Made by a program: the position numbers and the translations under genes. The notes under the pieces were generated by a model, which was given only the letters and a program-made list of their open reading frames with translations, did no database searches and was not told the DNA's origin. Positions 3,093 to 9,675 of a stretch of 64,000 nt of DNA are shown here, in pieces; the first letter of the stretch is position 1, and each line of letters starts with the position of its first letter. The DNA lies in NCBI GenBank assembly GCA_026391695.1, contig JAPLDP010000042.1:1-64000 (forward strand), given 5' to 3'. This stretch comes from Bacteroidota bacterium. Lineage in GTDB: Bacteria; Bacteroidota; Bacteroidia; Bacteroidales; JAGONC01.

Positions 3093-5516
3093 ATGAAATA
3101 CGGATATTTCGACGATATAAACAAAGAGTATGTTATTACCAATCCCGCGACCCCATATCCATGGATAAACTACCTTGGAAATGAGAATTTTTTCAGCATC
3201 CTGTCTAATACGTGCGGAGGGTACAGTTTCTATAAAGATGCCAGGTTAAGAAGAATTACCCGTTACAGATATAATAATGTGCCTGTAGATGACGGAGGAA
3301 AATATTTCTATATTCAAGATGACGGCCACATTTGGTCGCCGGGATGGAAGCCTGTAAAAAATGAATTAGATCACTATGAATGCCGTCATGGACTAGGTTA
3401 TTCAAGGATAACAGGAAGATTGAATAACCTTAGTGCCGAAGTCCTCTTCTTTGTACCGCTGGGATTTGATGGAGAGATACAAAAACTTACGCTTAAAAAC
3501 CTTAGTGATCAAATTAAAGAGATCAAAATACACTCGTTTGTTGAATGGGCATTCTGGAATGCCCATGATGATATGACCAATTTCCAACGCAACTTTTCAA
3601 TAGGTGAAGTAGAAGTAGCAGGTTCCGAAATTTTCCACAAAACCGAATATCGCGAACGCCGTGATCATTTTTCATTTTATTCGGTAAATCATCCGATTGC
3701 AGGATTCGACACCGACCGGGATACCTTCCTTGGACTATATAATGGATTTGATCAGCCTGAAAAAGTTTTAACGGGATCTTCCGGTAACTCAATAGCCCTT
3801 GGCTGGTCACCTATAGCCTCACATTTTTTGAAAATTATTTTAGGTCCTGGAGAGGCACGTGATCTTGTGTTTATTCTCGGTTATGTTGAAAATGAAAAGA
3901 ATGAAAAGTTCACAACACCAAACGAGATCAACAAAACAAAGGCAAGAGAAATGATTGGGCGATTTGAAACTGCTGAACAAGTTGACCGGTCACTTGCTGA
4001 ATTAAAGCAATTCTGGAATAAACTGCTGGGAAACTTACAGCTTGCAAGTCAGGATGAAAAATTGAACCGCATGGTGAATATCTGGAACCAATATCAATGT
4101 ATGGTCACTTTTTATTTCTCGCGCAGTGCTTCTTATTTTGAATCGGGGATTGGCCGGGGAATGGGTTTTCGAGATTCGAACCAGGATATAATCGGCATAG
4201 TTCACATAGTACCTGAGCTTGCAAAACAACGTATCATCGACCTTGCGAGGTCGCAGATGAAAGACGGCAGTGCCTATCATCAATACCAACCCCTGACCAA
4301 AAAAGGAAACCTTGAAATAGGTAGTAATTTTAACGATGATCCCTTGTGGTTGATCCTGGCAGTTTCGGCCTACATCAAAGAGACAGGCGACTGGTCATTA
4401 CTCGAAGTTAAGGTACCGTTTGATGACGATCATGTTGAGTATTCTATTTTTGAACACATCAAACGCTCCTTTTATCATGTCGTCAATAATCTCGGACCAC
4501 ATGGGCTTCCTCTCATTGGCCGGGCCGACTGGAATGATTGCCTGAATCTTAATTGTTTTTCTGTAGAACCCGGTGAGCCATTCCAGACAACAGAGAACAA
4601 AACTGGTGGACAAGCCGAATCGATGATGATAGCCGGTATGTTTGTCCTCTATGGTCATGAATTTGTCCGCATTTGTGAACTCACGGGATATAAGGATCAG
4701 GCTGAAGAGGCTCGCGGACATATTGATGCCATGAAAATTACCATTGATGAATACGGATGGGACGGTGATTGGTTTATTAGGGCATATGATTATTTTGGCA
4801 AAAAGGTTGGCAGTAAAGAGAACGAAGAAGGACAGATCTTCATTGAGCCCCAGGGCTTCTGTGTTATGGCCGGAATTGGCCTTCAGGATGGCAGAGCGCA
4901 AAAGGCGATGGACCAGGTTGAAAAAAGGTTGGCCACACCTTATGGAATTGTACTATTAAATCCCGCCTACACTAAGTATTACTTAAACCTTGGAGAGATA
5001 TCCAGTTATCCTCCAGGTTATAAAGAGAATGCCGGTATTTTCTGTCATAATAATCCATGGATCATCATTGCTGAAACAATGCTAAACAATAATGACAAGG
5101 CATTCGATTATTATAAGCGAATTGCACCCGCATATTTGGAAGAGATCAGCGAATTGCACAAAACTGAACCTTACGTATATGGACAAATGATCGCGGGCAA
5201 GGATTCAGCCAAACCGGGCGAAACAAAAAATTCCTGGCTAACAGGAACCGCTGCCTGGAATTTATACGCCATTAGCCAATACATATTAGGCATCCGGCCC
5301 GATTACCAAGGCCTGATCATTGACCCAAAATTACCCGGATACATTGAAGAATGTGAAATCACCAGAAAGTTCAGGGGTGCCACATATAAAATTAAGTTGA
5401 TCAATAATGGTGGGAACCGGTGCAAGGTATTTATTAATAATGAAGAGTTGGAAGGTAATCTGCTGCCCTCTCCTAAAAAAGATTTCACTTATGAAGTGAC
5501 TGTTTTAATGCAATAA
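3093..5516 (+). CDS. Glycoside hydrolase family 94 phosphorylase (cellobiose phosphorylase-like)
   Basis: At 807 residues the protein is close to the length of characterised cellobiose phosphorylases (about 810-820). The N-terminal beta-sandwich is followed by an (alpha/alpha)6 barrel with the family landmarks [16 protein letters not shown] (sugar and phosphate site) and [11 protein letters not shown], where the Asp of DWND is the general acid. No signal peptide is seen, so it works in the cytoplasm, splitting an imported beta-1,4 glucoside with phosphate into glucose 1-phosphate and glucose and saving ATP. Cellodextrin or laminaribiose specificity cannot be excluded from sequence alone. It is the middle gene of the operon, 16 and 18 bases from its neighbours. 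Confidence 0.88.
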
Positions 5517-7942: not shown

Positions 7943-8218
7943 GTAATTCTTTTACTTTTCAAATTATATATCCACCTGATTGGTGGCAAGCTTATCGCCG
8001 GCGACAGCACTAAGTTACGGGCACAGAACAGCAAGAAGAATAATTTCAGCCAGGCTAAAATTGAAAGGCACCTGGCCTATATTGATCATAAACTGGAAGA
8101 ATACACCCGGGCTTTGGCTGAGCAGGATGGGGATGACAAGGAGGCTGTTTTGCAGGAAATAGAAAAACATAATCAGAGGAAAGAGCAATACAGGGAATAC
8201 GGTACCATAAAAATTTGA
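7943..8218 (+). pseudogene. IS1182-type transposase remnant
   Basis: An open frame without a start codon runs to the TGA at 8216-8218. Its translation contains GGKLIAGDSTKLRAQNSKKN followed by a charged coiled segment. This resembles the stretch of IS1182/IS4-like DDE transposases in which the catalytic Asp of a DGTK/DSTK motif is followed by an RAxNSK block and a helical linker. Both the N-terminal DNA-binding part and the C-terminal catalytic part are missing, so it is a dead fragment of about 90 codons. It marks the left side of a small mobile-DNA scar. The precise IS family is moderately certain. Confidence 0.65.
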
Positions 8219-8320: not shown

Positions 8321-8761
8321 ATGGAAATAATTCTAAAAGATTTAAAAAATCAGGATGATATTCATAAATTTAAGGATGTTTTGACTGAGTTTTATGATGA
8401 GATTGAACATGATAAAATAACTGATAATGAGTTGCTACGATTAATTACGGATTTTATTAACAAAGGAATAATTAAGGTCGCAATATATAATAATGAAATA
8501 ATAGGATTTATTAGTTTAATAGAGTCATATGCAATTTATGCAAGTGGAAAATATGGAGTTATAAATGAATTATATGTAAAACCACATTTTAGGTCTAAAG
8601 GAATTGGTGAAAAATTAATGTTGTATGCTAATCAATTAAAAGAAATAAAAGAATGGTCTAGATTAGAACTATCCCCACCCGAGGAATCAAAGTGGAAGAG
8701 GACATTGAATTTTTATTTAAAAGAAGGGTTCAATCCAACTGGTGTGAGAATGAAAAAATAA
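8321..8761 (+). CDS. GNAT-family N-acetyltransferase
   Basis: A 146-residue protein with the GNAT fold. The acetyl-CoA binding segment VKPHFRSKGIGEKLM matches the family pattern R/Q-x-x-G-x-G/A, and an ELSPPEES strand follows with the usual C-terminal YLKEGF turn. The substrate is unknown. The gene is visibly richer in A and T than its neighbours (many ATA, AAT and TTA codons) and lies between two transposase remnants, which suggests horizontal acquisition. It has no obvious operon partner. Family call is secure; function beyond acetyl transfer is not. Confidence 0.82.
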   Translation: MEIILKDLKNQDDIHKFKDVLTEFYDEIEHDKITDNELLRLITDFINKGIIKVAIYNNEIIGFISLIESYAIYASGKYGVINELYVKPHFRSKGIGEKLMLYANQLKEIKEWSRLELSPPEESKWKRTLNFYLKEGFNPTGVRMKK

Positions 8762-8799
8762 ACCCTGCATCCAATAAGTAAGGTGTCGTGTGGCGTAGC

Positions 8800-9360
8800 C
8801 TAATCCCGCCTTACCTTTAGATTAGCCGATGAAGCTGTGTTGCACAGCTTGCCCCGCAGCAGGGGGGGGGGAATCCTGTCCTGTCCGCGCTTCATATAAG
8901 TTTTTCTATTTTTCTTTTCTCTTTTTTCCGGAGTGTGGATGCCAAACTCCTTTTGCAATAACCGCAGTTGTTTGCGTTTTGTGGCTGACAGTAATCCGTA
9001 ATACCGGATCCTGACAAAACCTTTGGCCAGTATGTGCTGACAAAATCGCATCAGGAACTCGATTCCCGATAGCTTCATTTGTTTCTGCAGGTTGTCGCGG
9101 TAATCCAGGTAGTGATTCATCTCTTTCTCGCTGATATGCTGGGGTAGCTTGCCGAAGTGTAAACTCACCTGAGCCAGTTTACAAGCATAGATATTCAGCG
9201 TACTTTTCGATTGCCCCGATAAGACGATCTTGACCTGAAGTTCCCGGAATAATTTTCCGAAGCCATGTATTTCATGGCATGCCTGTTCAACAATAGTGAA
9301 CGATTTTTTTCTTAATTTAGACGTAGCTTTTTCCGTAGTATAAAAATTTTGTGGTAAAAA
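8800..9360 (-). pseudogene. In-frame fusion of a tyrosine-integrase N-terminus with an IS91 transposase C-terminus
   Basis: The minus-strand frame is open from just after a TGA at 9361-9363 to the stop at 8800. Its first half (containing KIVLSGQSKSTLNIYACKLA and KLPQHISEKEMNHYL) is the core-binding SAM-like domain of XerC/D-type integrases. The second half (MKLSGIEFLMRFCQHILAKG, then FVRIRYYGLLS) is the conserved C-terminal part of IS91-type transposases. Both catalytic domains, the integrase RHRY and the IS91 HUH/Tyr region, are missing. Bacteroidota IS91 elements often carry an integrase gene next to the transposase gene, so one in-frame deletion between them explains the fusion. A run of ten G (8862-8871) lies in the non-homologous C-terminal tail. 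There is no ATG at the true N-terminus. Confidence 0.7.
8832..8850. repeat. Perfect 8-bp hairpin in the IS91 scar
   Basis: AAGCTGTG and CACAGCTT flank a TTG loop. It lies just before the ten-G run at 8862-8871, downstream of the recognisable IS91 homology. It may be part of an element end or the original transposase terminator. Confidence 0.4.
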
Positions 9361-9420
9361 TCATTTATACTACATTTATCGGAAAAGGCTATCCCGTTCC
9401 CGGGTCTTGCCCGGGATGGG
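9325..9420. repeat. Nested inverted repeats, probable element end
   Basis: Three palindromic units sit together. TAGTATAAA (9336-9344) pairs with TTTATACTA (9364-9372). Outside them AGCTTTTTCCG (9325-9335) pairs with CGGAAAAGGCT (9380-9390) with one mismatch. A GC-rich hairpin follows (9393-9404 with 9410-9420, one bulge). They lie at and beyond the 5' end of the integrase/IS91 remnant, where an element terminus or integrase crossover site would be expected. Role is inference. Confidence 0.4.
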
Positions 9421-9675
9421 ATTTAGTGCAAAATCGTGCTTGCGCAATTCCCACAAGATACTGATGGAGAATAATGCAAGTAAATTAAATTTTGACGTTT
9501 TGCGAACATCTCAGCAAGTCGATACGTTTGCAAAAGCGCAAGCACATGGGCGTTGAAAGTTAACTCAAAGATTCACCTGTATGATGATTTTTATTTCTGT
9601 ATCTTTACACATGTTATAAAGTTTAGTTCGCAAAGCAAACTTACAGCACAGGTGTCTTTCGTTAATTAGTTCAAT
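9421..9675. other. Non-coding stretch with a 100-bp-spaced inverted repeat
   Basis: No gene is visible. GTGCTTGCGC at 9436-9445 and its exact reverse complement at 9536-9545 enclose 90 bases, so the arms repeat at a distance of exactly 100. The repeat could be a remnant of the mobile element next door. The last 100 bases lead into the ComB-like gene and contain an imperfect -7 element (TATCTTTA near 9600). Confidence 0.4.

Follow-up and report, generated by a model that had tools for sequence, protein, structure and literature searches.

Decayed two-gene integrase–IS91 transposase element in a Bacteroidota genome and the apparent attC setting of its relatives

The open reading frame P0001, located on the minus strand of the 64,000-nt stretch of contig JAPLDP010000042.1 analyzed here (hereafter, the window), is best read as a pseudogene. 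Two internal deletions in a two-gene element of approximately 2.4 kb, carrying an integrase gene and an IS91-type transposase gene, very probably left this 659-nt remnant, which would earlier have been located in the attC site of a GNAT acetyltransferase cassette. Taken alone, the fused ORF is ordinary decay. The recurrent two-gene element connects HUH transposition with integron attC sites, both being systems with a preference for single strands, and also flags integron-type cassettes in a lineage in which they readily escape notice, as this setting did in the sequence-only reading of the window.

Composition and decay of the fused frame

The features delineated in the window were as follows:

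8803–9360, minus strand: fused pseudogene P0001, a 186-codon open frame (profile matches and DNA alignment)
9106–9360, minus strand: integrase-derived N-terminal part with the SAM-like domain in part (DNA alignment to C17, L026 and L155)
8911–9105, minus strand: C-terminal part of an IS91 (Y2) transposase, beyond the catalytic tyrosines (profile matches and DNA alignment)
8775–9433, minus strand: complete remnant of the element, 659 nt (ends placed by aligning it with the other copies)
9418–9433, minus strand: 5′ end motif of the element, TTTTGCACTAAATCCC (TGTTGNACTAAAYC in relatives; comparison with relatives)
8773–8850, minus strand: 3′ end region of the element, with the inner GTGCAAC box and a degraded terminal hairpin (no canonical hairpin fold)
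8321–8761, plus strand: GNAT acetyltransferase gene, the proposed integron-type cassette gene (Pfam Acetyltransf_7, E 1e-12)
8764–8774, plus strand: proposed attC R″ box CCTGCATCCAA, 3 nt past the GNAT stop (position by analogy with other copies)
9434–9552, plus strand: proposed remainder of attC, a palindrome followed by G|TTGAAA (fold z −2.49)

According to the DNA alignments, the window from 9431 to 9105 matches the sister copy C17 and the relatives L026 and L155 over their 5′ end and integrase gene, and from 9105 on it matches the IS91 transposase genes of L085, L088 and L155. Positions 135–182 of 183 of the Pfam profile Y2_Tnp (PF04986) corresponded to P0001 residues 83–130 (E 2.3e-11, above the cut-off), and positions 265–340 of 356 of the NCBIfam IS91 transposase profile NF033538 to residues 83–157 (E 9.7e-17), with a score of 61 bits that is below the cut-off of 125. 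The integrase half was not called by Pfam because the stretch is too short; the same stretch is assigned to Phage_int_SAM_4 in the C17 copy and in the intact relatives. The profile matches and DNA alignments thus agree with the sequence-only reading, in which an integrase N-terminal part was proposed to be joined in frame to the C-terminus of an IS91 transposase near HYLDYRDNLQK. This join was placed within the motif, at window position 9105 (codon 86 of P0001), and the SAM-like domain is therefore kept in part. Compared with L155, the integrase of which is 84% identical over the matched part, the window stops at position 3547 and restarts at 5032 with approximately one shared base at the join; across the junction, the DNA aligns to two separate L155 stretches 1,484 nt apart, this being the loss at the first join, and deletion holds as the cause of the fusion. 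The frame would have been kept here by chance.

The earlier assumption of one deletion event had to be revised, since a second join was found at window position 8911/8909, which corresponds to positions 1202 and 1540 of the C17 copy with 337 nt gone, and past which the frame reads into the non-coding 3′ end of the element. Given the two joins, residues 1–85 are derived from the integrase gene together with the edge upstream of it, residues 86–150 from the transposase, and the last 36 residues (151–186) from neither, being read-through of that non-coding end. Both catalytic domains are missing, as had been noticed from the sequence: in the transposase and integrase alignments, the kept part ends ahead of the integrase catalytic domain and starts again past the HUH motif and the two catalytic tyrosines. 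As for the limits of the ORF, the open frame of 186 codons stands, and the 122-aa ORF starting from GTG is a mechanical call.

The sequence-only reading had allowed for a product with DNA-binding potential. Such a product is unlikely, because the start codon is lost (that of the C17 copy aligns with a non-start codon in the window), the fusion is absent from the sister copies C17 and C55, and the SAM-like domain is partial. Both sister copies are cut at other places: C17 retains the integrase up to approximately residue 170, followed by the transposase joined out of frame, and C55 retains it up to approximately residue 104, followed by a join to the 3′ region. The 186 codons open through both joins would suit a retained, translated protein binding the element or attC sequences; against this stand the same three observations, the final 36 residues that come from neither protein, and the full-length match in 0 of 60 other genomes, which make retention highly improbable.

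Neither P0001 nor its join was found elsewhere in its own genome or in the 60 relatives, the sole full-length match being P0001 itself. Scans that reach close relatives only gave 19 pattern matches in genome_contigs and 6 in viral_contigs, with no end-to-end relative of P0001 in either set. As the draft genome comprises 95 contigs, the join could in principle be an assembly artefact; this is extremely improbable, as other internal deletions were seen in the sister copies and both joins lie within one 659-nt stretch whose ends resemble those of other copies.

The ancestral two-gene element and its ends

Intact pairs of an integrase of approximately 300 aa and a transposase of approximately 380 aa, overlapping or almost touching, were found in relatives, in agreement with the proposed ancestor, in which the two genes would have followed each other in this order. 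The suggested check for an integrase next to IS91 elsewhere was thus positive in relatives and negative in the own genome, where no intact Y2 transposase was found and the single PF04986 match is the remnant itself. An integrase, partial ones counted, was located directly upstream on the same strand in 74 of the 80 nearest transposase loci, which are the best of at least 589 transposase relatives; three of the six loci without it have less than 900 nt of upstream sequence. The hosts of the transposase loci are mostly Bacteroidota, with some from other phyla, and the element length in the 13 relatives with both ends read was 2,370 to 2,670 nt (median 2,422). The HUH motif and the two catalytic tyrosines are present in the transposase alignment of relatives, and their integrase has the SAM-like and catalytic domains, whereas only part of the N-terminal domain is left in the window. 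The intact locus L076 contains both PF04986 and PF14319 (Zn_Tnp_IS91). The L026 integrase gave 166.8 bits with the integron integrase profile TIGR02249 (IntI), which is below the cut-off of 265; being Xer-like and below this cut-off, the integrase was therefore not assigned to IntI. No integron integrase above the cut-off was found in the own genome, which gave 15 TIGR02249 matches below it; this counts against the attC reading.

The element ends were examined in 38 hand-picked loci of the 80. The 5′ motif TGTTGNACTAAAYC was present with up to 3 mismatches in 33 of them, and its inverted copy was detected downstream with up to 4 mismatches in 21, several of these clearly by chance; 14 of the 21 were taken forward. 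The 5′ ends were located by a pattern containing TGTTG, so that this sequence is partly imposed and no argument on the base at the exchange point is drawn from it. In the fuller relatives, the 5′ end opens with a GTTGNAC box, and the 3′ side has its complement, GTNCAAC, and then a hairpin, after which comes the RTT|R of an attC-like box. The hairpin is supported by covariation, with changes on both sides at 8 of 11 pairs among 16 readable sequences. The 3′ end of the window copy is degraded and did not form the canonical terminal hairpin on folding.

With up to 3 mismatches, the hairpin motif occurs 15 times in the own genome (0 for the reversed-pattern control), mostly close behind a gene and on the same strand. 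An initial view of the 3′ hairpin as nothing more than the attC of the cassettes was dropped, as the outer 5′ flanks are the other half of longer palindromes. A hairpin of 55–60 nt was also found alone between two genes, as a full palindrome without integrase or transposase, at L067, L066, L069 and L073 of the own genome, at L083 (8535–8585) and at L152. Such a solitary hairpin may act as a short attC site or be the last trace of a lost element; hairpins without the integrase–IS91 pair are unaccounted for by the model of insertion into attC and count against it. Genomes G001 and G002 (loci L143–L146) have hairpin copies, yet no P0001 match.

Insertion at attC-like sites in relatives and the proposed site in the window

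Many of the relatives appear, from sequence comparison, to be located inside integron-type attC sites. In the fuller relatives, the element recurrently breaks an attC-like palindrome within its RYYYAAC, at the R″ box close to the stop of a gene, and the other half of the longer palindrome sits outside its 5′ end. An uninterrupted homologue was found for 20 of 49 outer flanks and none for the other 29. YAAY coincides with the insertion point or lies a few bases from it in 17 of these 20 uninterrupted homologues, or 16 of 19 when one self hit is excluded (background 0.155), and in all 13 with E ≤ 0.01; it is missing in the other 3. The L187 flank, for instance, is 96% identical to L085 over 77 nt with CCGCTAATA ahead of it, the L173 flank is 100% identical to L169 over 46 nt (GCATAACA), and the L206 flank is 95% identical to L175 over 77 nt (GCACAACA). 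The uninterrupted homologues and several native sites have a palindrome behind a gene that is framed by RYYYAAC and GTTRRRY boxes. Integrons have been reported from Bacteroidota (PMC9668308; PMC8618304).

The outer flanks gave a mean fold z of −2.17 versus −0.64 for random places in the same loci, and z was below −2 in 28 of 56 outer flanks versus 22 of 112 random places (p 1.8e-6); 7 of these 56 five-prime ends were later dropped as not belonging to the element, and the real five-prime ends L158, L165 and L195 were filed as inner ends. Of 14 named 3′ ends in relatives, one was unreadable, and 8 of the remaining 13 have a stop at a distance of up to 60 nt (control 0.149; 5 of 13 without); a stop was also found within 60 nt of the own-genome hairpin in 10 of 14 motif copies, the fifteenth, near a contig end, being excluded (control 0.134; 4 of 14 without). 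Complementarity of cassette start and end over at least 8 nt was detected at 5 of 43 sites versus 0.9 expected from swapped pairs, with some palindromic sites entered once per strand and one of the five, that of the window, being due to chance. Among seven joined flanks folded against simple shuffles, four were clearly better, with the window, C17 and C55 the clearest; G003_C15 and, hardly, G003_C36 showed a slight to moderate gain, and G026_C40b and G011_C19 folded no better than the shuffles.

These data also bear on the reading that the hairpin and end motifs are those of a common IS91-type element, the target of which is short and GTT-like, and that the link to attC is only apparent, insertions behind stops being the least harmful. 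IS91-type elements do use short targets, the three hairpin copies of G011 all lie at integrase–IS91 copies, as would be expected of a part of the element, and the five named 3′ ends without a nearby stop point in the same direction. Such a reading is nevertheless unlikely, given the RYYYAAC box at the junction in uninterrupted flank homologues from other contigs (13/13 at E ≤ 0.01), the close match of the L187 flank to L085, outer flanks that are more palindromic than random places, and the cassette-type complementarity of start and end.

In the window, the layout of GNAT gene, box, remnant and palindrome is compatible with a cassette whose attC was interrupted by the element, for which the evidence is weaker than in the relatives. 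The palindrome at 9434–9552 was equalled by 2 of 200 dinucleotide shuffles, and the proposed attC remainder on 130 nt gave z −5.0 when simple shuffles were used. Neither an uninterrupted homologue of the window flank nor a 5′ boundary of the window cassette was found, and R′/R″ complementarity was rejected as proof of this cassette, the only R′ match lying by chance inside the glycoside hydrolase gene. Before decay, the element would have been located in the attC of the GNAT cassette, at the R″ box just past the stop.

Several other observations concern the surroundings of such sites. A fragment of an IS1182-family transposase lies between the glycoside hydrolase and GNAT genes (7976–8215, plus strand; NF033551 positions 133–203, E 9.6e-08, 31 bits versus a cut-off of 270), and a 2-phosphosulpholactate phosphatase gene (PF04029; 9676–10413, plus strand) is located directly behind the mobile stretch; the neighbourhood of the latter gene differs in three relatives, as far as the examined loci extend. 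Glycoside hydrolase and GNAT genes were not found in the 2.5 to 3.7 kb examined of G001, G003 and G004. Elsewhere in the own genome, the arrays L022 (C5) and L096 (C30) consist of a hairpin, a shared repeat of approximately 400–450 nt ending in gctgttagcaaatag|TTR, and the next gene, one of these genes having an FRG domain; the ends of their cassettes are complementary to the starts (TTGGGTGC, TTGGCAGCA).

Possible targeting and comparison with known systems

The anatomy of the element, its ends and its insertion place in relatives are seen in the sequence comparisons; as for targeting, we infer that the element's own proteins would choose attC, with the HUH transposase handling or supplying a single strand; recombination between the folded hairpin and the attC core would perhaps fall to the integrase. 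The element ends GTTGNAC and GTNCAAC, together with the hairpin, would copy R′ and R″ of attC, so that the integrase may recombine the folded strand. We therefore tentatively propose that the integrase–IS91 elements could be self-moving cassettes, in which the strand is made by the HUH enzyme, the hairpin mimics attC, and a Xer-like integrase other than IntI recombines at the GTT core of R″; if so, the gene-cassette sites of Bacteroidota would be landing pads for rolling-circle elements.

A plausible alternative, though less likely than not, is that in living relatives the HUH transposase alone picks attC as a folded single strand, the integrase serving only for resolution or excision of intermediates. 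Hairpins and single strands are substrates of HUH enzymes, as established for IS200/IS605. A cassette array with an IS200/605 element immediately downstream has been reported (PMC7923331). At odds with this are the resemblance of GTTGNAC/GTNCAAC and the hairpin to R′ and R″, which a tyrosine recombinase would read, and the almost constant presence of the integrase. If targeting is real and driven by the element, it would account for the constant association of these IS91 transposases with an integrase, and recombination of attC-like hairpins by a Xer-like integrase would become testable.

Some IS91 members in ISfinder carry an integrase-like gene. The open-access literature searched yielded no description of IS91-type elements in attC or of this integrase–IS91 pair; the two-gene design is therefore probably not new, and the novelty may lie in the attC setting. 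The element shares with the IS91 family the transposase, as recognized by Pfam Y2_Tnp and Zn_Tnp_IS91 and NCBIfam NF033538, and the hairpin at the 3′ side. It differs in the integrase directly upstream (in the above majority of the best loci), in the inverted end boxes, and in its insertion into RYYYAAC of attC-like sites rather than into GTTC/CTTG, the target of IS91.

With integron cassettes it has in common the G|TTR starts, the YAAC ends and the palindrome behind a gene; in contrast to them, the element has its own integrase, scoring below the integron-integrase cut-off, sits in the R″ box and reads towards the cassette gene. The CR2-sul2 unit/GIsul2 likewise combines an IS91-like (ISCR) unit with a tyrosine integrase by which it is mobilised (PMC9376610), but that integrase comes from a genomic island with a chromosomal attB, and no attC hairpin is involved. 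The IS1111-attC group (ISKpn4, ISPst6) is described as targeting one end of attC (PMC11187229, citing Tetu and Holmes 2008; Post and Hall 2009), a preference that the element described here would share. The transposase of that group, however, is a DEDD enzyme and RNA-guided, with neither a HUH transposase nor a tyrosine integrase. If its targeting is real and element-driven, the present element would provide a second, unrelated route by which insertion sequences home to attC.
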